Part shown: in pieces, positions 20,153 through 29,748 of the stretch
How the letters are laid out: every line of letters starts with the position of its first letter
Numbering within the stretch: position 1 is the stretch's first letter
Translations under genes and position numbers: made by a program
Source: Sulfurovum sp.
Lineage (GTDB): Bacteria; Campylobacterota; Campylobacteria; Campylobacterales; Sulfurovaceae
Direction: 5' to 3'
DNA length: 33,694 bases
NCBI GenBank assembly: GCA_026982075.1
Contig: JALSHU010000010.1
Span: 1-33,694 of the forward strand
Notes under the pieces: generated by a model
The model's database searches: none
What the model saw: only the letters and a program-made list of their open reading frames with translations
Told to the model about the DNA's origin: nothing

Positions 20153-20956
20153 ATGAAAAAACTTTTGATACTTGTATTAATGACATGGTCAATACAGGCT
20201 AATCAACTGGGGATAAATGAACATTTAGGTGAAACGGTTCCACTTGACTTAACATTCATCAATGAAAAAGGGGAGAGGGTTACATTAAAAAAACTCATGG
20301 ATGGGAAACCTACGATGATCTCCCTCAATTACTTTCGTTGTGCAGGTATCTGTACCCCTCAACTCAATGATATGGCAAAAATGCTTGGTCGCTTGGACTT
20401 GGCAGAAAATACAGATTATAAAGTCCTTACTATTGGCTTTGCAGAAGATGAAGGTTTTGAATTGGCCGCGGCCAAGCGTAAAACTATGCTTTCTAGCATA
20501 CAAAGACATTTTGTTCAAGATGCATGGCACTTTGTGATAGGCGAAAACAATTCTTCAGCTATATTGGCAAATAAAGTTGGTTTTACGTATGAAAAAACTG
20601 TTTCACCAGCAGGTGTTGTAGATTATGTACATCCAGCCGTACTCATAATGCTTTCCCCAGAGGGAAAAATAACCCGTTATCTTAATGGGATTGAACAGCT
20701 TCCTTTCGATGTTAAAATGGCTTTAATGGAAGCAGGAGAAGGAAAAGTAGGCCCAACTATAGCCAAAAATTTGTTATTTTGTTTTGCATATGATCCAAAA
20801 GCCAAGACATATATTTTTAAATGGGAAAAGATTGCGGGTGTTGTCATGACACTGATTATGATTACTTTCTTTATCTATCTTATAAAAACGAGTAGAAGAG
20901 ATGAAGATCAAGAAGAATATGAAAATCATCAAAAAAAGGAGACAAAAGATGAGTAA
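20153..20956 (+). CDS. SCO1/SenC family copper chaperone
   Basis: A 267-residue exported, thioredoxin-fold protein that delivers copper to the CuA or CuB site of cytochrome oxidases. A signal peptide or anchor occupies residues 1-17. The copper ligands are Cys63 and Cys67 in the FRCAGIC motif and His160 in DYVHPAV. Unlike short SCO proteins it has a second hydrophobic helix near residues 227-247 and a charged cytoplasmic tail, so it is probably anchored at both ends. GGGAG precedes the ATG. Its end overlaps the ctaD start by 8 bases, which ties it to the oxidase that follows. Confidence 0.9.
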   Translation: MKKLLILVLMTWSIQANQLGINEHLGETVPLDLTFINEKGERVTLKKLMDGKPTMISLNYFRCAGICTPQLNDMAKMLGRLDLAENTDYKVLTIGFAEDEGFELAAAKRKTMLSSIQRHFVQDAWHFVIGENNSSAILANKVGFTYEKTVSPAGVVDYVHPAVLIMLSPEGKITRYLNGIEQLPFDVKMALMEAGEGKVGPTIAKNLLFCFAYDPKAKTYIFKWEKIAGVVMTLIMITFFIYLIKTSRRDEDQEEYENHQKKETKDE

Positions 20957-22604
20957 AAGTTATTTCGACGAAACACACTGTGCTATAGGGCATCCTAAAA
21001 GTACATTCATGCAATGGATGCTTACAGTAGACCATAAGAGGATAGGTCTCATGTATGCAGCCGTGATGTTTACGTTCTTTTTCATTGCGGTATCTACAGC
21101 ACTGCTAATGCGTTTTGAATTATTTGCACCAGGACAACAGTTTATAGATGGGGATACATTTAACCAAGCATTTACGCTGCATGGAGTTATAATGATTTTC
21201 CTTTTTATTGTGCCAGGTATTCCTGCTGTATTTGGAAATATTGTTATGCCATTGATGATTGGAGCAAAAGATGTCTCTTTCCCTAGACTCAATTGGTTTA
21301 CTTTTTGGCTCTATATTTTTGGTTCTGCTATTGCTATTGCATCACTCTTTACAGATGCAGGATTTGCAGACACAGGTTGGACATTCTATGCACCGTATTC
21401 ACTAAATACAGGTACCAATGTTATTTTTACCCTTGTTGCAGCATTTGTACTTGGTATGGCGTCTATTCTTACAGGACTTAATTTCTTGGTGACGATTCAT
21501 AGACTCAGAGCACCGGGTATGACGTTCTTTAAAATGCCACTTTTTGTCTGGGGTATTTATGCTACAGCATGGATTCAACTCTTGGCAACGCCAGTTGTTG
21601 GGATAACACTTATTCTTGCGATTATGGAGAAATATTTTGGTATTGGTATATTTGACCCTTCAAAAGGAGGAGATCCTGTACTCTTTGAACATTTGTTCTG
21701 GATATATTCTCACCCAGCTGTTTATCTTATGATTCTCCCAGCATTTGGTATTATGTCTGAAATTATTCCTGTTTTCTCAAGAAGAGAAATTTTTGGGTAC
21801 AGAACTATTGCACTTTCTTCAGCATCTATTGCAGGGATTGGTTATTTAGTTTGGGGACATCATCTTTACACTTCAGGTATGGCGGACATTGCTAAAACTG
21901 TCTTTTCTCTATTAACCTTTTTCGTGGCTATTCCAACGGGAATCAAGTTTTATGACTGGATTGCTACAATGTATAAAGGTAAAATTATTCTCTCTACACC
22001 TATGTTGTGGGCGATGGGGACTATTATTACTTTTGCTATTGGTGGATTGACAGGCGTGACAATAGCGATGATTGGAGTAGATATTCACTTACAAGATACG
22101 TATTATACTGTTGCACACTTTCATTATGCGATGTTAGGTGGAGTTGTCTTCTTGTTTTTTGCTGGGATGCATTATTGGTTTCCGTTAGTGACGGGAAAAA
22201 TGTATGATGAATCTAAAGCAAAAATAGCATTTTATATGCAGTTTGTAGGGTTCAACTTATTATGGTTCCCTATGTTTATTGCAGGGTTCCTTGGGATGCC
22301 TCGTCGTTATTTTGATTATTTACCAGAGTTTCAAATTTACCATCAGTTTTCCTTTTTTGGGGCATTGTTATTTATAGCAGGCCTTGTTTTCATGTTTTGG
22401 GTCTTTTATAAAGGCTGGACAAAAGGTGAAAAAGTAGGACCAAATCCTTGGCATGCAACAACGTTAGAATGGCATATGCCAACTTCACCACCACCACTAG
22501 AGAATCATTCAAAGGTACCTTATGTTGACTTTGATCCCTATGAGTATCATCATGGTGAACCAGTTGTGAAATTTGATTACGAAACCATGAGGAGGATAGA
22601 CTAA
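20949..22604 (+). CDS. ctaD: Cytochrome c oxidase subunit I, A-type heme-copper oxidase (A2 subfamily)
   Basis: A 551-residue, twelve-helix catalytic subunit that reduces oxygen and pumps protons. Low-spin heme ligands are His79 and His392, the high-spin heme ligand is His390 (VAHFHY), CuB ligands are His255, His304 and His305, and Tyr259 would be cross-linked to His255. D108 (IGAKD) starts the D-channel and Lys333 (PTGIKFY) is the K-channel lysine. The usual GHPEVY is YSHPAVY (253-259): the D-channel glutamate is absent and a Tyr-Ser pair replaces it, the mark of A2 oxidases such as those of Rhodothermus and Thermus. The ATG at 20949 has AAGGAG upstream; an ORF extension to 20901 lies inside sco. 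Confidence 0.96.
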   Translation: MSKSYFDETHCAIGHPKSTFMQWMLTVDHKRIGLMYAAVMFTFFFIAVSTALLMRFELFAPGQQFIDGDTFNQAFTLHGVIMIFLFIVPGIPAVFGNIVMPLMIGAKDVSFPRLNWFTFWLYIFGSAIAIASLFTDAGFADTGWTFYAPYSLNTGTNVIFTLVAAFVLGMASILTGLNFLVTIHRLRAPGMTFFKMPLFVWGIYATAWIQLLATPVVGITLILAIMEKYFGIGIFDPSKGGDPVLFEHLFWIYSHPAVYLMILPAFGIMSEIIPVFSRREIFGYRTIALSSASIAGIGYLVWGHHLYTSGMADIAKTVFSLLTFFVAIPTGIKFYDWIATMYKGKIILSTPMLWAMGTIITFAIGGLTGVTIAMIGVDIHLQDTYYTVAHFHYAMLGGVVFLFFAGMHYWFPLVTGKMYDESKAKIAFYMQFVGFNLLWFPMFIAGFLGMPRRYFDYLPEFQIYHQFSFFGALLFIAGLVFMFWVFYKGWTKGEKVGPNPWHATTLEWHMPTSPPPLENHSKVPYVDFDPYEYHHGEPVVKFDYETMRRID

Positions 22605-23302
22605 TGGCACACGAATATATACCAGAAATTTCAACAGACCGTGATGGAAATGAACATGTTGTCCAAGGTTGGCAAGATGATTTTTATGGAGGAAAATTAG
22701 GGTTTTGGCTCTTTATGTTTACTGAAGTGTTGATGTTTGGGGCGATGTTTTTAGTTTTAACCTATTATAACATGCTTCACCCTGCAGATTTTGTTACAGC
22801 TTCAGCATCATTAAATAGGTTTCTTGGGGGTACCAATACGGTGATACTCCTTGTCTCAGCACTGACAATGGGACTTTCTTTACTTAAAATGAGAGCAGGG
22901 GATGTCAAGGGAGCCAAACTTATGATTTGGGCAACGATTATTCTTGCACTTATGTTCTTGAGTATTAAAGCTGTCGAATGGACCGCAGAGTACAATCATG
23001 GTGTTTTCTTAGGCTTGGATGCATTACAATCTGGGAATGCACATTCAAAACCATTTGGAGAGATATTATTTTTCGGAATGTATTTTACAATGACAGGGAT
23101 TCATGGTTTTCACATTATTATTGGTATTGGACTTATGGTATGGCTTCTTAAACGTATTAATGCGGGAAAAGTAAGTCCTGAACATCATATTTTACATTGG
23201 AATATTGCTTTATATTGGGATATCGTACACCTTATTTGGGTATTTGTATTCCCTTATTTTTATATGATTGGCGCAGCGTCAGGAGGAACAGGTGGACACT
23301 AA
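22604..23302 (+). CDS. ctaE: Cytochrome c oxidase subunit III
   Basis: A 232-residue membrane protein of the bacterial five-helix subunit III type, which stabilises subunit I and supports proton uptake. Family features include GKLGFWLFMFTEVLMFGAMF, the KAVEWTAEYNHG segment, FTMTGIHGFHIIIG, and the final YWDIVHLIWVFVFPYFY. The ATG overlaps the ctaD stop by one base (TAATG), so expression is coupled. Confidence 0.94.
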   Translation: MAHEYIPEISTDRDGNEHVVQGWQDDFYGGKLGFWLFMFTEVLMFGAMFLVLTYYNMLHPADFVTASASLNRFLGGTNTVILLVSALTMGLSLLKMRAGDVKGAKLMIWATIILALMFLSIKAVEWTAEYNHGVFLGLDALQSGNAHSKPFGEILFFGMYFTMTGIHGFHIIIGIGLMVWLLKRINAGKVSPEHHILHWNIALYWDIVHLIWVFVFPYFYMIGAASGGTGGH

Positions 23303-23303
23303 T

Positions 23304-23663
23304 ATGATAGATTATAAATCAGAAAGGGTAATGTATTACAAAGTACTTGTTGGTTTACTTTTATTGACAGCAGTCACTTTTGTTTTACCGTATTTATTTG
23401 AAGCAGGTGCAAATTTACCTGCACAAATGTTTATTGCAGTGATAAAAGCATGGTTGATTCTTATGTTTTATATGCATTTAAAGGGAGAAAAACTTATTTC
23501 AGTGATGGGTATATTTTCATTGGCGATTGTACTGGTTTTCTTTATTATTGTTCTCGTTGTAGATGTTGCTAACTTCCAATTTAAGGATGAAAGTCATATT
23601 ACAGCACCACAACATACAACTACAGGCGTAACAGAAAATGTTGCAGCGCCTGTGAAGCACTAA
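23304..23663 (+). CDS. ctaF: Cytochrome c oxidase subunit IV (prokaryotic type)
   Basis: A 119-residue protein with three hydrophobic segments (about 11-30, 38-56 and 65-88) and the WLILMFYMHLKGE motif typical of CtaF/CyoD small subunits. It is a structural subunit of the oxidase. The ATG at 23304 begins immediately after ctaE; AGGAGG and GGTGGA lie upstream within ctaE. An upstream in-frame start at 23268 lies wholly in ctaE and is rejected. The tail after the last helix is Thr/Ala-rich and probably disordered. Confidence 0.88.
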   Translation: MIDYKSERVMYYKVLVGLLLLTAVTFVLPYLFEAGANLPAQMFIAVIKAWLILMFYMHLKGEKLISVMGIFSLAIVLVFFIIVLVVDVANFQFKDESHITAPQHTTTGVTENVAAPVKH

Positions 23664-23674
23664 GGAGTTTTTAA

Positions 23675-24853
23675 ATGAGTAATACTTTAGAAGGGTTTAA
23701 CTCTCAAGCAGCCACATTTGCAGCAGACGTAGATCAGGCATTTTGGATAAATTTCTGGATTTCTATTATACTTTTTTTATCGGTTGTTGTACCTATGATT
23801 TATTTTGCATGGAAATATCGTGCCGACAAAGTGAAAAATGAAGACATATGCAAAGTAACACATAATACTTCCCTTGAACTTGCCTGGACACTGATTCCTA
23901 CAGCTATGCTGTTTGTACTTTTTTACTATGGGTACAGTTCTATGAAGATATTAAGAACAATGCCAGCAGAAAGTCAAAGTATCGTGGTGCATGTTGAAGG
24001 TAAAAAATGGTCTTGGAACTATACTTATCCAGCCAACAAAAGTGGTTATATACATAAAACAGCGGAACTTTATGTGCCGAAAGATCAAAATATCATTTTA
24101 AAAATGACTGCGCCTCTTAATGATGTGCTTCATGCTTTCTATGTACCTGCTTTTCGTATGAAAGAAGATGTTGTGCCTGGACGTATCACAAAACAGTGGT
24201 TTAATTCTGAGGTAATTGGTACCTATGATGTTGAGTGTGCAGAGTATTGTGGTACCCGTCACTCTTACATGTACTCAAAAGTACATGTCATTCCAAGAGC
24301 AGAATATGATGAGTGGTTTGAAAGTAAAAAACGTACCCCTGGTGCTCCGGATGTAAAAATATCTAAAGGGCAAGAGTTATATGAATCAAACGGGTGTGCA
24401 GGATGTCACTCTATTGATACAGATGCCGTATTGGTTGGACCATCTCTTAAGGGAATAGGTGCAAAATATGATGCAGGGTACTTAAAAGATGCTATTGTCA
24501 ATCCGGACAAAGATATACCTGAAGGGTTTACAGCAGGTGTGATGCCACCATTTACTTTACCAGATGCTGATATAGATGAGATTATTAACTATTTTAACAA
24601 TACAGACAAAGGAAAAGAATTATATGAAGCAAACGGATGTGCAGGATGTCACTCCATAGACAGTGATGCCATACTCGTAGGCCCTTCACTAAAAGGTATT
24701 GGAGGCAAGCGAGATGCAGCATATTTAAAAGATGCTATTCTTCATCCAGACAAAGATGTACCAGAAGGATTTACAGCAGGAGTAATGCCACCATTTACTT
24801 TACCAGATGCGGACGTTTCTGAAATTATCAGATATATGCAGTCGGCGAAGTAA
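23675..24853 (+). CDS. ctaC: Cytochrome c oxidase subunit II fused to two cytochrome c domains
   Basis: A 392-residue electron-entry subunit. Two helices (about 23-46 and 68-90) anchor a periplasmic cupredoxin domain whose CuA ligands are all present: His153, Cys188, Glu190, Cys192, His196 and Met199. After it come two class I cytochrome c domains in tandem. Heme attachment is at CAGCH 241-245 and 322-326, with Met290 and Met371 as axial ligands. Ordinary caa3 oxidases have one such domain. No lipobox is evident, and the N-terminus seems to lack a cleavable signal. The gene lies after subunits I, III and IV, whereas subunit II usually comes first. Confidence 0.95.
   Translation: MSNTLEGFNSQAATFAADVDQAFWINFWISIILFLSVVVPMIYFAWKYRADKVKNEDICKVTHNTSLELAWTLIPTAMLFVLFYYGYSSMKILRTMPAESQSIVVHVEGKKWSWNYTYPANKSGYIHKTAELYVPKDQNIILKMTAPLNDVLHAFYVPAFRMKEDVVPGRITKQWFNSEVIGTYDVECAEYCGTRHSYMYSKVHVIPRAEYDEWFESKKRTPGAPDVKISKGQELYESNGCAGCHSIDTDAVLVGPSLKGIGAKYDAGYLKDAIVNPDKDIPEGFTAGVMPPFTLPDADIDEIINYFNNTDKGKELYEANGCAGCHSIDSDAILVGPSLKGIGGKRDAAYLKDAILHPDKDVPEGFTAGVMPPFTLPDADVSEIIRYMQSAK
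24365..24850 (+). repeat. Tandem duplication of the cytochrome c domain in ctaC
   Basis: Two copies of exactly 243 bases (24365-24607 and 24608-24850) encode 81 residues each. By direct alignment 63 of 81 residues are identical, with no gap. The similarity covers the whole domain, which points to a fairly recent in-frame duplication. Confidence 0.95.
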
Positions 24854-24861
24854 GTTTTTTA

Positions 24862-25728
24862 ATGATTAAAGACTTTTTTGTTGTAACAAAGTTTGTTCTT
24901 TCCTTTGCCGTGAGCCTTTCCGCACTCTTTGCCTATATAATGGCAAAGGGAGAGGTGGGTCTGGATATGTTACTTGCTACCCTTTCTGTACTTTTAGTGG
25001 CTATGGGTGTTTCAACTTTCAACCAAGTGCAGGAGTATAAAGAAGATAGCAAAATGCAACGGACTAAAAACCGTCCTATAGCAGCAGGAAGAATGACACC
25101 ACGTACTGGCTTTATTATTGCGGGCAGTTTGATTATACTTTCCATGATACTTATTTACAGTCTGCTAGGACTTACGGGTATTAATATTTTTATGTTTGCT
25201 TTTATTTGGTATAACGCTATGTATACACCTTTGAAGAAAAAATCAGCACTGGCAGTTGTTCCCGGTGCAATTTTAGGTGTCATCCCGCCAGCTATTGGTT
25301 GGTTGGTCGCTGGGCACTCTTTAATGGAACTTGAGTTCATAGCAATAGCACTCTATTATTTCATTTGGCAAGTACCCCATTTTTGGTTACTTGTGATGTT
25401 GTTTCATGGAGATTACAAGGATGGTGGCTATCCAACAGCTATGAAATTATTTGGACAAGCAAGCTTGCAACGTCTCACATTTGTATGGTTGATTTTTACT
25501 ATACAATCAGGTATCTTTATGGTATCAGTCTTTGAAGTATATTCTATGATAACGATTGGGTTAAGTATTTTGGTAGGGATATGGGCTTTCATCTCTTCCT
25601 TGGAATTGTTAAACGCTACATTTAAACTCTCAAATGCACGTCGTGTATTTTGGAAGATTAATGCATCTTTTTTGGCCATTGTAATACTCTTAAGTATTGA
25701 TGAATATGTGAAACATCATATCTCTTAA
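24862..25728 (+). CDS. ctaB: Protoheme IX farnesyltransferase (heme O synthase)
   Basis: A 288-residue UbiA-superfamily membrane enzyme with about eight to nine helices that attaches a farnesyl group to heme B. The first prenyl diphosphate site is FNQVQEYKEDSKMQRTKNRP (a Glu replaces the first Asp of the usual NxxxDxxxD). YTPLKKKSA and the PGAILGVIPPAIGW loop are strongly conserved in CtaB. The second acidic site is GDYKDGGYP. It sits 8 bases after ctaC with a weak ribosome site. No ctaA (heme A synthase) is present in the window, so the product may be used directly as heme O. Confidence 0.93.
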   Translation: MIKDFFVVTKFVLSFAVSLSALFAYIMAKGEVGLDMLLATLSVLLVAMGVSTFNQVQEYKEDSKMQRTKNRPIAAGRMTPRTGFIIAGSLIILSMILIYSLLGLTGINIFMFAFIWYNAMYTPLKKKSALAVVPGAILGVIPPAIGWLVAGHSLMELEFIAIALYYFIWQVPHFWLLVMLFHGDYKDGGYPTAMKLFGQASLQRLTFVWLIFTIQSGIFMVSVFEVYSMITIGLSILVGIWAFISSLELLNATFKLSNARRVFWKINASFLAIVILLSIDEYVKHHIS

Positions 25729-25748
25729 ATGGATTTTAGGAAATAACT

Positions 25749-26270
25749 ATGGAACCTTCAGATTATACTTTAAATGAAATACTAGCATCGATAAGTACCT
25801 ATAAAAAACCAAAAGCTAAAAAACGGTTGATTTTTGACCAAGCACCCTTGGGTGGTATAGGGAGTAAATGGCTTATTTCATTTTTTTTCTTGTTACCTTT
25901 GATAGAATATGCAGGTATTTTTAATCCTTTCATATTTGGTATGTTAGGTATTGCGCAAGCAATTATTTTTTATGTTATTTTCTTCTCAATGATTATGATA
26001 TTGATTTTTGCTTTGTCCTTTATCAATAATACAAAAGTGATTAGACAAATAACCCCATCATGGCAAAACTATTTTCCTACTATTGATATAGATTTGATTC
26101 TTTCTTCGGGCGCATCTCCTTATAAGGATTTTTTTAAACATTATAGTGTAGCGTTAAATAAGGGACTTAAAAATGATGCATTATATCAGTATCTACAAGA
26201 AGCTTTTATATTAATGCAAGAAGAGAATAAAGACTTATTAGAAGCAATGGCTAAAAAGAGAGAAAGATAA
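25749..26270 (+). CDS. Hypothetical membrane protein at the end of the caa3-type operon
   Basis: A 173-residue protein I do not recognise. After a basic N-terminal segment (KKPKAKKRL at 19-27) come two or three hydrophobic helices between about 42 and 93, then a soluble alpha-helical C-terminal part of about 80 residues. It has AGGAAA upstream of the ATG and is 20 bases after ctaB, so it is most likely co-transcribed with the oxidase and could be an assembly factor. It has no copper- or heme-binding motif and is not a CtaG or CtaA homologue by eye. Confidence 0.75.
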   Translation: MEPSDYTLNEILASISTYKKPKAKKRLIFDQAPLGGIGSKWLISFFFLLPLIEYAGIFNPFIFGMLGIAQAIIFYVIFFSMIMILIFALSFINNTKVIRQITPSWQNYFPTIDIDLILSSGASPYKDFFKHYSVALNKGLKNDALYQYLQEAFILMQEENKDLLEAMAKKRER

Positions 26271-26482: not shown

Positions 26483-27949
26483 ATGCAAGCAAATGCAGCA
26501 TTGGAATATGATTATTCTTTAGCAAAAAAGTTTACATTTTTAACTATTTTGTTTGGATTTTTAGGTATGTTGGTCGGTACAATTATCGCCGCACAAATGG
26601 CATTTCCGGAATTAAACTATTTACTTGGTGAATATGGTACTTTTTCAAGACTTAGACCAATTCATACTAATACAGTGGTCTTTGGATTTACGGTATCAGC
26701 TATTTTTGCCACATGGTTTTATGTGGGACAGAGGGTACTGAAAGTATCAATGGCAGAGTCAAGATTTTTGATGGTTATAGGAAATATCCAGTTTTGGCTT
26801 TATTTTATAGGGGCACTTTTAGCAACTATCTCACTTCTTTTTGGTATATCTTCATCAAAAGAGTATGCACAATACGAATGGCCATTTGATATCGTGGTTG
26901 TGATTGTATGGGTACTTTGGGGTTTTAATATTATGGGGCTCATCGGTATCAGGAGAGAAAAAGCACTTTATATTTCTGTGTGGTACTATCTTGCATGTTT
27001 CTTAGGTATTTCTATGCTCTACCTCTTTAACAATATGGCAATCCCTACCTATTTCGCTACAGAAGGTCTTGGGAATATTTTTCATTCCGTTTCAATGTAC
27101 TCTGGTACCAATGATGCGCTAGTACAATGGTGGTATGGACACAATGCGGTTGCATTTGGGTTTACTGTGCCTATTGTTGCAATGATTTACTATTTCTTGC
27201 CAAAAGAGTCTGGGCAAGCTATTTACTCATATAAATTGTCATTACTTTCTTTCTGGGGATTAATGTTTGTCTATCTTTGGGCTGGTTCACATCACCTTTT
27301 ATGGTCAACAGTTCCTGACTGGATGCAGACGATGGGTTCAGCGTTTTCTATTGTACTTATCTTACCTTCTTGGGGATCGGCTATTAATATGCTTCTTACG
27401 ATGAAGGGTGAGTGGAATCAGGTAACAGAAAACCCACTGATTAAGTTTATGGTATTGGCATCAACATTCTATATGTTATCTACGATTGAAGGACCTATCC
27501 AGGCTATTAAATCAGTCAATGCGATTGCGCACTTTACAGACTGGATTCCAGGACATGTACATGATGGTGTTTTAGGATGGGTTGTGTTTATGGTTATGGC
27601 ATCTATCTTTCACATGGCACCTCGTATGTTTAAAAGAGAAATTTACTCTAGAAAATTGATGGAAGTGCAGTTTTGGTTACAAACTACAGCAGTTGTTTTA
27701 TACTTTACATCTATGTGGATTGCAGGTATCACGCAAGGTATGATGTGGAGAGCAGTAGATGAGTATGGTAATTTGATGTATTCATTTATCGATACCGTCA
27801 CGGTCCTTCATCCTTATTATACGATTAGAGCACTTTCAGGGGTCATGTACCTTACTGGTTTCTTGATGTTTGCTTACAATATTTATAAAACTATGACTGC
27901 AGGTAGAGAACTATCTGAAGAACCACAGTTTAGAACACCTATGGCATAA
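26483..27949 (+). CDS. ccoN: cbb3-type cytochrome c oxidase subunit I
   Basis: A 488-residue, twelve-helix catalytic subunit of the high-affinity C-type heme-copper oxidase. Family motifs are SRLRPIHTN (low-spin heme His), WWYGHNAVAFGFT with the CuB His, WAGSHHLLW with two CuB His, TIEGP with the conserved Glu, and HFTDWIPGHVHDGVLGW with the two heme His. The ATG at 26483 follows a strong AAGGGGG site; an in-frame start at 26444 is rejected. It heads the cco operon and is preceded by an FNR-like box. Confidence 0.97.
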   Translation: MQANAALEYDYSLAKKFTFLTILFGFLGMLVGTIIAAQMAFPELNYLLGEYGTFSRLRPIHTNTVVFGFTVSAIFATWFYVGQRVLKVSMAESRFLMVIGNIQFWLYFIGALLATISLLFGISSSKEYAQYEWPFDIVVVIVWVLWGFNIMGLIGIRREKALYISVWYYLACFLGISMLYLFNNMAIPTYFATEGLGNIFHSVSMYSGTNDALVQWWYGHNAVAFGFTVPIVAMIYYFLPKESGQAIYSYKLSLLSFWGLMFVYLWAGSHHLLWSTVPDWMQTMGSAFSIVLILPSWGSAINMLLTMKGEWNQVTENPLIKFMVLASTFYMLSTIEGPIQAIKSVNAIAHFTDWIPGHVHDGVLGWVVFMVMASIFHMAPRMFKREIYSRKLMEVQFWLQTTAVVLYFTSMWIAGITQGMMWRAVDEYGNLMYSFIDTVTVLHPYYTIRALSGVMYLTGFLMFAYNIYKTMTAGRELSEEPQFRTPMA

Positions 27950-27964
27950 GGGAGGTAGGTTATT

Positions 27965-28633
27965 ATGTTTTTTCATTGGTTAGAAAAAAATCCATTCTTC
28001 TTCGCTGCAGGAATATCGATTGTTATATCATTTGCTGGGCTTTTAGAAATAGTACCAAACTTTGCTGAGGCAGCTAGACCTTTGGTTGACCTAAAGCCTC
28101 GTACAGTACTTCAGCTCGCAGGTAAAAATGTGTATAAGAAAGACAACTGTATATCATGTCACTCACAAATGATTAGACCGTTTAAGTCCGAAACTGACAG
28201 ATATGGGGCATATTCACTTTCAGGTGAATATGTATATGACAGACCTTTTCTCTGGGGAAGTAAAAGAACGGGTCCAGACTTACACCGTGTAGGTAACTAT
28301 AGAACAACAGATTGGCATGAGAACCATATGTGGGATCCTCCTGCAATAGTTCCTGGTTCTATCATGCCAGCTTATAAACATCAGTTTACAAACTTAGCAG
28401 ATATTGAAACAGCTTATGCTGAAGCAGTTACTGTAAAAAATGCATTTAACACACCTTATGGTCCTGAATTTAAAGGAACAAGAGCAGCATGGGAAGCACA
28501 CAAACCAAAAGTGTTGGAAGAAGCAAAACGTATTGCTGATGACATGAAAAATAAAGATATTAAAGAAGCTGTTGCTAGAGGTGAAGTGCCTGAAGTTGTT
28601 GCTCTTATTGCTTATCTTAACAGTTTGAAATAG
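27965..28633 (+). CDS. ccoO: cbb3-type cytochrome c oxidase subunit II (monoheme cytochrome c)
   Basis: A 222-residue periplasmic cytochrome anchored by one N-terminal helix (about 10-30). The heme c site is CISCH near residue 60, in the conserved KKDNCISCHSQMIRPF context. The axial Met is in PGSIMPAY. Family motifs GPDLHRVGNYR and the WDPP segment are present. It carries electrons from CcoP to CcoN. GGGAGG lies upstream of the ATG. Confidence 0.96.
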   Translation: MFFHWLEKNPFFFAAGISIVISFAGLLEIVPNFAEAARPLVDLKPRTVLQLAGKNVYKKDNCISCHSQMIRPFKSETDRYGAYSLSGEYVYDRPFLWGSKRTGPDLHRVGNYRTTDWHENHMWDPPAIVPGSIMPAYKHQFTNLADIETAYAEAVTVKNAFNTPYGPEFKGTRAAWEAHKPKVLEEAKRIADDMKNKDIKEAVARGEVPEVVALIAYLNSLK

Positions 28634-28642
28634 TAGGATTGT

Positions 28643-28861
28643 ATGGATATTAGAGACTTACAAGGGTATGGGAGTTTCTTTATGACCATCTTTTTGGTTG
28701 TGATGTTATATGGGTATATTATACACTTGTATAGATCTGAAAAAAAGGGTGAGCGGGACTATGAAAAATATGGAAGAATTGCACTTGATGACGAAGTTAC
28801 AAGTACACCTGTAGAAGATAAACCTGCTTCAGAAAGAGAAAATGAGAAGGAAAATAAATGA
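28643..28861 (+). CDS. ccoQ: cbb3-type oxidase small subunit, CcoQ
   Basis: A 72-residue protein with one N-terminal helix (about 10-29) followed by a charged, acidic tail rich in Glu and Lys. That is the layout of CcoQ, which stabilises the cbb3 complex. It lies between ccoO and ccoP and overlaps ccoP by 4 bases (ATGA). Confidence 0.88.
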   Translation: MDIRDLQGYGSFFMTIFLVVMLYGYIIHLYRSEKKGERDYEKYGRIALDDEVTSTPVEDKPASERENEKENK

Positions 28862-29748
28862 ATGCATTAACAATCAAAGCATTGGCATTTGCAGCGATTT
28901 TAATTATAGCAACTATTGCTGTGGTAACGAGTTTAGATATAGATATCATGGGAGACTTTGTATATGCAGTGACAATGGGTGGTGCAATCGCTATTGCGGT
29001 TATCACAGCGTTTGTGACAACTAAATATATCAACCAAATGAAAACAGATACCCCAAGTGGTGACCTTGCGGATGAAAATTGGGATGGGATAGGAGAATAT
29101 GAAAATGAACTTCCTTCAGGATGGGCATATGCATTTCTTGCTACCTTCCTCTGGTCGATGTGGTATGGTTTTTTAGGTTATCCTACCAATGCGTACAGTC
29201 AAATAGGCGAATACAATGAAGAAGTACTTGCCTACAATGAAAAGTTTGAATCTTTACATAAAAATGCAGATGCAGCAACACTTTTAGAAATGGGTGAATC
29301 CATTTATCTAGTGCAATGTGCACCATGTCACGGTAATACGGGTGATGGTCTATCTGGGAAAGCACAAGACTTTACAGGAAGAATGACCAAAGAACAAGTC
29401 TTGTATGTGATTAATAACGGTTCAAATCAATTGGGTTACCCAATGGGGATGATGCCTCCAGGTATGGCAGCAGGGAAAGATGCTGAAGATATTGCAACCT
29501 ATGTTGCAGGTGGAATGCAAGGTGAGAAACCTGCATCTTTTGCAGCGTGTGCATCCTGTCATGGTGAAGATGGAAAAGGGATGAATGGTATGGCACCAAA
29601 TCTTGCCCAATACGATGATACACTTATGACACTCGTTTTAGAAAAAGGTAAAAAGGGGGTCATTGGAACAATGCCTTCTTTTAAAGATAGGTTAACACCA
29701 GTACAACAAAAAGCAATGACTGTGTATATCCAGTCATTGTCAAATTAA
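28858..29748 (+). CDS. ccoP: cbb3-type cytochrome c oxidase subunit III (diheme cytochrome c)
   Basis: A 296-residue membrane-anchored diheme cytochrome, the entry point for electrons from soluble cytochrome c. Two helices (about 5-25 and 32-54) precede the conserved WDGIGEYENELPSGW, and a further hydrophobic stretch follows near 83-102. Heme c sites are CAPCH (near 156) and CASCH (near 231), with Met ligands in MMPPGM and GTMPSF. Translation overlaps ccoQ. Confidence 0.96.
   Translation: MNALTIKALAFAAILIIATIAVVTSLDIDIMGDFVYAVTMGGAIAIAVITAFVTTKYINQMKTDTPSGDLADENWDGIGEYENELPSGWAYAFLATFLWSMWYGFLGYPTNAYSQIGEYNEEVLAYNEKFESLHKNADAATLLEMGESIYLVQCAPCHGNTGDGLSGKAQDFTGRMTKEQVLYVINNGSNQLGYPMGMMPPGMAAGKDAEDIATYVAGGMQGEKPASFAACASCHGEDGKGMNGMAPNLAQYDDTLMTLVLEKGKKGVIGTMPSFKDRLTPVQQKAMTVYIQSLSN

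Follow-up and report, generated by a model that had tools for sequence, protein, structure and literature searches.

An A2-type oxidase cluster in Sulfurovum, probably of the cc(b/o)o3 kind, with a replaceable electron-entry arm in subunit II

Gene content of the oxidase cluster

The DNA under study (hereafter, the window) is a stretch of 33,694 nucleotides from Sulfurovum sp. (contig JALSHU010000010.1 of assembly GCA_026982075.1), whose genome, G000 in our sample, is a draft with 92% completeness. Between ddl on one side and the cbb3 oxidase genes ccoNOP on the other, the window harbors a compact cluster with the order sco-ctaD-ctaE-ctaF-ctaC-ctaB-hyp173, entirely on the + strand. The first gene, sco (20153..20956), encodes a SCO1/SenC-family copper chaperone presumably involved in CuA maturation (PF02630, E 1.2e-07; CxxxC at residue 63). 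Subunit I is encoded by ctaD (20949..22604; PF00115, 502.6 bits). Its probable start at 20949 (MSKSYF...) overlaps the 3' end of sco and corrects an earlier call; an ATG located upstream, at 20901, is a less likely start. Subunits III and IV are encoded by ctaE (22604..23302; PF00510) and ctaF (23304..23663; PF03626), the latter with a match to TIGR02229 (caa3 subunit IV) of 37.0 bits, just below the cut-off of 37.25. Subunit II, the product of ctaC (23675..24853), matches COX2_TM, COX2 and two Cytochrom_C stretches, and consists of a CuA domain followed by two tandem heme-c domains. The product of ctaB (24862..25728) is a predicted heme O synthase (PF01040, UbiA) whose best NCBIfam match, TIGR01473 (heme o synthase), reaches 152.9 bits, below a cut-off of 210.3. 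The seventh gene, hyp173 (25749..26270), encodes a protein of 173 amino acids, predicted to be mostly helical. Downstream, ccoN, ccoO and ccoP occupy 26483..29748 on the same strand, with ccoN starting at 26483; TIGR00780 and TIGR00781 are matched above cut-off, and ccoP matches TIGR00782 below it (119.1 bits; cut-off 179.95). Scans for promoters and terminators yielded numbers at chance level (28 promoter-like sequences vs 29.4 expected, and 4 terminator-like sequences vs 3.6 expected).

A2 oxidases are defined by a YSHP sequence in helix VI, where A1 oxidases have a Glu. The window CtaD carries FWIYSHPAVY, together with GHH, HFHY, TGIK, FGN and GAKDVSFPRLN, and the window CtaC shows the motif CAEYCGTRHSYM at residue 188, and a PF00116 match. 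We take these motifs to represent the CuB and heme ligands, the K and D channels and the CuA site, an assignment aided by alignment to solved A-type subunits I (three alignments, all to a single actinobacterial type). The YSHPAVY sequence is present in all 94 CtaD open reading frames (ORFs) examined, the window included (93 with FWIY, 1 with FWMY). Gene content and motifs thus describe a predicted membrane cytochrome c oxidase that is complete and of the A2 heme-copper type, and the presence of D- and K-channel residues suggests that it may pump protons. The order sco-I-III-IV-II-ctaB at 20153-26270, the location beside the cco genes and the A2 hallmark had been proposed in a previous sequence-only reading of this DNA, and the profile and motif matches agree with it on the three counts.

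Heme supply and type of oxidase

The same reading considered the enzyme aa3-like and of low affinity for oxygen, and both attributes are doubtful. An oxidase with heme A would be expected in a genome that encodes heme A synthase, CtaA. When PF02628 was used to search for CtaA, no match above cut-off was obtained in any of 397 genomes of the phylum or in any of 150 genomes of the family, that of the window (92% complete), which had no PF02628 match, among them. Neither was CtaA detected above cut-off in 50 genomes that hold operon loci, nor in 39 further genomes (23 from outside Campylobacterota and 16 from Campylobacterota, some on one contig), although some G-labelled members of the latter set may repeat genomes of the former. 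The search covered 73 of the 80 operon loci (50 + 23), with L047, L048, L057, L067, L070, L074 and L077 left out. The profile did match in 7 of 14 control genomes, including Thermus composti. Among 14 operon-bearing genomes, SURF1, Caa3_CtaG and CtaG_Cox11 were not detected either (0/14 each), while controls were positive in 2, 2 and 1 of 14, respectively.

As the genomes of the phylum lack CtaA above cut-off, the enzyme is probably a cc(b/o)o3 oxidase similar to that of Desulfovibrio, rather than an aa3 or caa3 oxidase, and heme O or B in subunit I is probably the simplest reading of the genes found. In Bacillus oxidases, heme O can substitute for heme A (PMC9145763). The oxidase of Desulfovibrio vulgaris Hildenborough, a cytochrome c oxidase whose subunit II contains a diheme domain (PMC3899249), is named cc(o/b)o3 for its b/o hemes, and has a reported Km of 620 nM (PMC4383621), a value that makes the low-affinity label doubtful. 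The proposed likeness to the Desulfovibrio enzyme concerns subunit II and heme supply: the window CtaC contains, like the Desulfovibrio subunit, two heme-c domains, and a predicted CtaB without a detectable CtaA would fit b/o hemes.

Several observations weigh against this assignment. Sulfolobus acidocaldarius, used as a control, matched for a heme-copper oxidase and not for CtaA. The oxidases of this organism contain an A-type heme, and a divergent heme A synthase could therefore escape detection with PF02628. In addition, PF02628 matches below cut-off (14.8-18.0 bits) were found in seven phylum genomes, including the operon-bearing G285, and three of the seven lie in stop-free frames; G469 provides another such match, with 18.2 bits. 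Furthermore, CtaB falls short of its own NCBIfam cut-off, and many of the genomes searched are drafts, that of the window included. One may thus consider that the enzyme is a true caa3 oxidase, supplied with heme A by an unrecognised enzyme or by other cells, and that it acts as a low-affinity, high-oxygen partner of the cbb3 oxidase. This possibility would agree with the Sulfolobus control, with the fact that a Thermus caa3 oxidase is the closest solved structure for subunit II, and with the name caa3 (A2-type) and the association with oxygen-saturated plumes found in PMC10066037. It seems, however, unlikely given the lack of CtaA above cut-off in 397 phylum genomes and in the sets of 50 and 39, the failure to detect the three additional factors in 14 operon-bearing genomes, and the existence of the Desulfovibrio cc(o/b)o3 oxidase with its Km of 620 nM.

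Types of electron-entry arm in subunit II

The heme-c domains of the window CtaC were missing from the sequence-only reading. They carry one CXXCH motif each (CAGCH in both cases), at residues 241 and 322, and repeat dissection places them at 24353..24595 and 24596..24850 on the + strand. The copies are 77.8% identical in protein over 81 residues and 75.3% identical in DNA over 243 bases, and the second domain is a tandem duplicate of the first. A comparable arrangement is known in the ccaa3 oxidase of Shewanella oneidensis, whose two heme-c domains of subunit II are 61% alike and have been ascribed to duplication; that oxidase differs in being of A1 type (GHPEV) and in having ctaA and surf1 in its cluster (PMC3899249). 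The best match of the window CtaC among solved structures is subunit II of the Thermus thermophilus caa3 oxidase (2yev_B, E 9.6e-39), which covers the CuA domain and the first c domain and extends no further than residue 308 of 392. CtaA is present in T. composti, the Thermus genome among the controls.

When the region that follows the CuA domain was compared in 45 CtaC proteins of the close lineage with a typable arm (the window included), four types of arm were found: a single domain (A, 13 proteins), a tandem pair (AA, 5), a pair denoted AB (2) and a type that we call P (25). The window arm is of type AA and is not a chimera. Loci whose contig ends before ctaC (L005, L009, L021, L048 and L057), a truncated locus (L047), duplicates (L084, L085 and L095) and the four distant Campylobacterota loci that served as outgroup were left out of these counts; L020 runs off its contig.

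The four arm states require 14 changes on the CtaD tree (minimum 3; mean of shuffled states 17.8, with values as low in 3 of 200 shuffles) and 11 on a tree of the CtaC core (minimum 3; shuffled mean 17.9, with values as low in 0 of 200). For the P state, the minimum imposed by starred branches is 8 changes on the CtaD tree and 5 on the CtaC-core tree. Against these figures stand the tests of individual states on the CtaD tree, where shuffles yielded values as low as observed in 41 (P), 33 (A), 66 (AA) and 500 (AB) of 500 cases. These results are unremarkable, and suggest a loose association between arm type and oxidase lineage, a property that would fit mobile arms. Judging from both trees, the predicted electron-entry arm of subunit II has switched type repeatedly and is replaceable in evolution.

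Outside the close lineage, the number of heme motifs in CtaC also varies: one, two or three are present in distant Campylobacterota, and none or one in loci from outside the phylum. A CtaC of 557 amino acids from the distant Campylobacterota lineage (L092) has three CXXCH motifs. In the close lineage, the first CXXCH is found at residues 237-244 in some proteins and at 253-264 in others, and the latter set has an apparent insert in the CuA domain (L017, L020). Eight CtaC proteins from Bacteroidota (L065, L068, L073, L076 and L078-L081) do not match the CuA expression CxExCxxxHxxM, an observation that admits two explanations: a variant CuA site or a fault in ORF picking.

A chimera of CtaC and CcoP

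The P arm deserves separate consideration. If P arms are split at a GPxL sequence that lies inside the first heme domain, the two parts show different affinities. The head best matches domain A of CtaC in 25 of 25 cases (46-67 bits, vs 20-26 for CcoP), and the body best matches CcoP, also in 25 of 25 cases (136-165 bits, vs 19-30 for domain A). The P arm, found in 25 of 45 CtaC proteins, thus has the structure of a ctaC-ccoP chimera joined inside a predicted heme domain. The second part of the arm in these 25 relatives belongs to the family of the CcoP subunit of cbb3 oxidases; the window arm is not of this kind, and is only 23.7% identical to the CcoP of its own genome over 169 columns.

In all 25 cases, including loci labelled Sulfurimonas, Sulfuricurvum and Arcobacter, the body finds its best match in a CcoP from the Sulfurovum group. 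The identity of the whole P arm to the CcoP of the same genome is 28.4-37.8% in eight non-Sulfurovum genomes vs 41.0-50.6% in seven Sulfurovum genomes. The bodies of P arms form one clade (100/99*) that groups with Sulfurovum CcoP (100/99*) and is nested inside it at 96/92*. Approximately unbiased (AU) tests do not reject trees that keep Sulfurovum CcoP as a clade separate from the arms (p 0.259 and p 0.309), which makes the nesting, and with it the exact CcoP donor, tentative. The first p value was obtained from a tree that omits rows L023, L031, L033, L042 and L020 and includes the long-branched CcoP of L038; the latter was left out of the tree that yielded the second value and of the whole-arm identities. 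CcoP rows in the trees come only from loci whose fetched flank includes ccoP.

The records of most P-type loci (25 in all) bear titles of metagenome-assembled genomes, and one could suspect that the chimeras are artefacts of assembly. This suspicion is hardly tenable: all 25 junctions fall within the same heme domain, P arms form one supported clade, and mis-assembly is made unlikely by the presence of P in records titled as single cells (L023, L054) and in Sulfurovum sp. AR (L026). Among the best 120 of 172 matches of a P arm, all that fall outside CtaC and its fragments are CcoP-like, most with FixP_N domains. A candidate for a stand-alone P-arm protein, P0246, turned out to be the end of the L017 CtaC.

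In the window, ctaC and ccoP lie approximately 4 kb apart on the same strand, and local recombination would be a natural source of the chimera. A scenario can be envisaged in which the two adjacent oxidase operons traded parts: subunit II was fused to a Sulfurovum-type CcoP diheme arm by recombination in a heme-c domain, and the chimera was then passed on to Sulfurimonas, Sulfuricurvum and others, where it displaced the native arms. In that case, the A2 oxidase would share donors with the cbb3 oxidase, use heme O instead of heme A, and rely for its assembly on hyp173 rather than on the known heme A and CuB factors. Taken in all its parts, we regard this scenario as tentative, with chances a little short of even.

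Distribution and probable exchange of the operon

Operon loci were retrieved using peptide patterns of the window CtaD, and 80 of 150 were kept as confirmed; the sample of loci from outside the phylum is therefore biased and uneven. At E <= 1e-30, CtaD is present in 17 of 397 phylum genomes and in 23 of 150 family genomes, a patchy distribution. The loci from Campylobacterota, labelled Sulfurovum, Sulfurimonas, Sulfuricurvum, Arcobacter and otherwise, encode CtaD proteins 83-99% identical to that of the window, with four more distant loci at 66-69%. Outside the phylum, loci labelled Bacteroidota, Ignavibacteriota, Kapabacteria and Caldithrix show 54-61% identity. The order sco-ctaD-ctaE-ctaC-ctaB is also found in loci of Ignavibacteria, Bacteroidales and Kapabacteria with enough sequence, and ctaF is not recognised by the window CtaF in loci from outside the phylum.

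The survey of the ddl-to-ccoN interval proposed in the sequence-only reading revealed a clean site. A ccoN match was found in 39 of 41 genomes of the genus, and the 30 best-scoring of the 39 ccoN loci comprise 16 that are occupied (hyp173 upstream of ccoN), 13 that are empty (ddl directly upstream) and 1 that is truncated. Location upstream of ccoN is common to many Sulfurovum and Sulfurimonas loci. One of the genomes with an empty site, G446, has a CtaD of the 66% type elsewhere, and G501, from the same genus, contains one CtaD gene with 87% identity to that of the window and another with 66%.

The sequence-only reading had attributed the operon to a probable acquisition from another phylum, and had proposed to examine this idea with a CtaD phylogeny and with the base composition of 20.1-26.3 kb. 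In a tree built from 93 CtaD rows, all 52 of those named as Campylobacterota fall on one side of a branch with 100* support, and the Campylobacterota clade is roughly sorted by genus label. The GC content is 0.365 in the cluster and 0.360 in its 5-kb flanks, and base composition thus reveals nothing foreign. Because CtaD groups with Campylobacterota CtaD and the GC content matches that of the flanks, recent import across phyla is unsupported. The facts that sampled homologues from outside the phylum are found in Ignavibacteriota and Bacteroidota, and that their gene order is identical, might suggest that the operon entered the window genome recently from one of these phyla; an identity of only 54-61%, together with the single Campylobacterota clade and the native GC content, makes such an event very improbable. 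An ancient transfer between phyla, in either direction, may have occurred.

To examine divergence, distances were compared for seven genes in eleven Sulfurovum-group and nine Sulfurimonas-like genomes that hold all of them. The ratio of between-group distance to distance within Sulfurovum is 1.35 for ctaD, 1.38 for ctaE and 1.95 for ctaB, compared with 3.67 for ccoN, 3.17 for purA, 2.60 for ccoO and 2.22 for carA. The signal of low divergence is therefore strongest in ctaD and appears weak in ctaB. Patchiness, empty ddl-ccoN sites and low divergence between genera together suggest that the operon has been gained, lost and exchanged among members of the phylum. The divergence ratios would be explained if the operon had been exchanged between genera after their split; vertical descent with unequal changes of rate might also produce them.

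Two aspects of the comparison speak against exchange. If the spread within Sulfurimonas-like genomes is used as reference, the contrast is smaller, with ratios of 1.10 for ctaD, 1.40 for ctaE and 1.30 for ctaB vs 1.65-1.94 for the other genes (ccoN 1.89, purA 1.94, ccoO 1.85, carA 1.65). Also, the ctaB ratio relative to Sulfurovum, 1.95, is close to that of carA, 2.22. One might propose that the operon descends vertically from a Campylobacterota ancestor, with massive loss and without transfer, and that the cassette was simply kept upstream of ccoN. A single, roughly genus-sorted CtaD clade in the phylum, the position upstream of ccoN shared by many Sulfurovum and Sulfurimonas loci, and a composition that resembles that of the flanks would be natural consequences of such descent. 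We nevertheless consider it improbable: divergence of ctaD between genera is merely 1.35 times that within Sulfurovum, when the adjacent ccoN reaches 3.67; CtaD is found in only 17 of 397 phylum genomes; and the chimeric arms of Sulfurimonas group with CcoP of the Sulfurovum side, not with Sulfurimonas CcoP.

Additional genes were noticed in certain loci. In three Sulfurovum loci inspected (L026:15440-16051, L006 and L018), a protein of approximately 204-208 amino acids is encoded between hyp173 and ccoN, where the window has a 212-base spacer only; the L026 copy carries a Sel1 repeat (PF08238). A Sulfurimonas locus (L022:8299-9048) has a second sco (PF02630) directly upstream of the sco of the cluster. 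Sulfurimonas-like loci L043 (6831-7799) and L030 contain two small genes between carA and sco; those of L043 encode proteins of approximately 179 and 142 amino acids, the first with a DUF2269 match below cut-off.

A candidate partner of the oxidase

The hyp173 protein has no match to Pfam or NCBIfam families. An AlphaFold2 model with a mean pLDDT (predicted local distance difference test) of 90.3 was compared with the Protein Data Bank using Foldseek, and the 11 matches obtained all had E values of 4.2 or worse, none reaching E <= 0.001. Among 150 family genomes, hyp173 is present in 22, and 21 of these also have ctaD (Fisher p 2.4e-22, uncorrected for kinship); the two counts are assumed to refer to the same 150 genomes on the basis of equal size and shared labels. 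Special cases are G505, where hyp173 lies approximately 2 kb from a contig end and no CtaD is listed; G446, which has the 66% CtaD type only; and G515, whose CtaD match lacks the first 28 residues. The gene also follows ctaB in loci without ccoN in the fetched flank. We regard hyp173 as a candidate oxidase subunit or assembly factor.

Discussion

The gene cluster is real, and oxidases of its kind have already been published. For Sulfurimonas pluma and Sulfurovum sp. AR, Molari et al. 2023 described an oxidase of caa3-type (A2-type), for which they proposed horizontal acquisition (PMC10066037). The oxidase of these bacteria is of the same kind and from the same phylum as that of the window, and a Sulfurovum sp. 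AR record is locus L026 of our sample, in which no locus was recognised as that of S. pluma. The terms ctaA, ccoP and diheme do not occur in the main text of that paper, and the types of arm, the absence of CtaA and hyp173 are added here. Caldithrix abyssi has a heme-copper oxidase with a different cluster, with the order CoxII-I-III-IV and a heme a synthase gene (PMC5317091); its phylum is also represented in our sample of operon loci, by L058, whose label is Caldithrix sp. As for other relatives, caa3/aa3 oxidases of a Sulfurospirillum and of mangrove isolates are listed as low-affinity (PMC11406935, PMC12403661), and the portions available of PMC7580541 and PMC4288042 only name cbb3 and bd oxidases, whereas those of PMC11549363 contain nothing relevant. 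Neither a CtaC-CcoP chimera nor a missing CtaA in Campylobacterota was found in a literature search that left out most subscription journals, which is weak evidence of novelty. New in this work are a phylum-wide setting in which CtaA could not be recognised, subunit II arms that are exchanged and chimeric in related bacteria, and hyp173.

Altogether, we consider it likely that the cluster encodes a complete A2 oxidase, probably cc(b/o)o3, that is accessory, shared by recombination and equipped with a replaceable arm. Electrons would enter from a periplasmic c-type donor onto the two heme-c domains tethered to subunit II, and would move on through CuA and the low-spin heme to the high-spin heme/CuB site, the predicted place of O2 reduction; heme O would probably be supplied by CtaB. 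As an accessory enzyme, the oxidase would pass by recombination between bacteria that resemble Sulfurovum, Sulfurimonas and Sulfuricurvum, with its genes often placed immediately upstream of those for cbb3. Its electron-entry arm may be a single domain, a tandem copy (the case of the window) or a fusion with the CcoP diheme portion.

If this interpretation is correct, the labels 'aa3' and 'caa3, low affinity' used for Campylobacterota in genome papers misname the enzyme, and ecological arguments that rest on a low affinity for oxygen call for measured values. In the ctaC-ccoP chimera, one would have a tangible example of an electron-entry module common to two oxidase families. Arms with one heme, with two by duplication and with two by fusion would make up a natural series, suitable to probe the effect of a tethered cytochrome on the choice of donor. 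Lastly, hyp173 would be a testable new partner of the oxidase.

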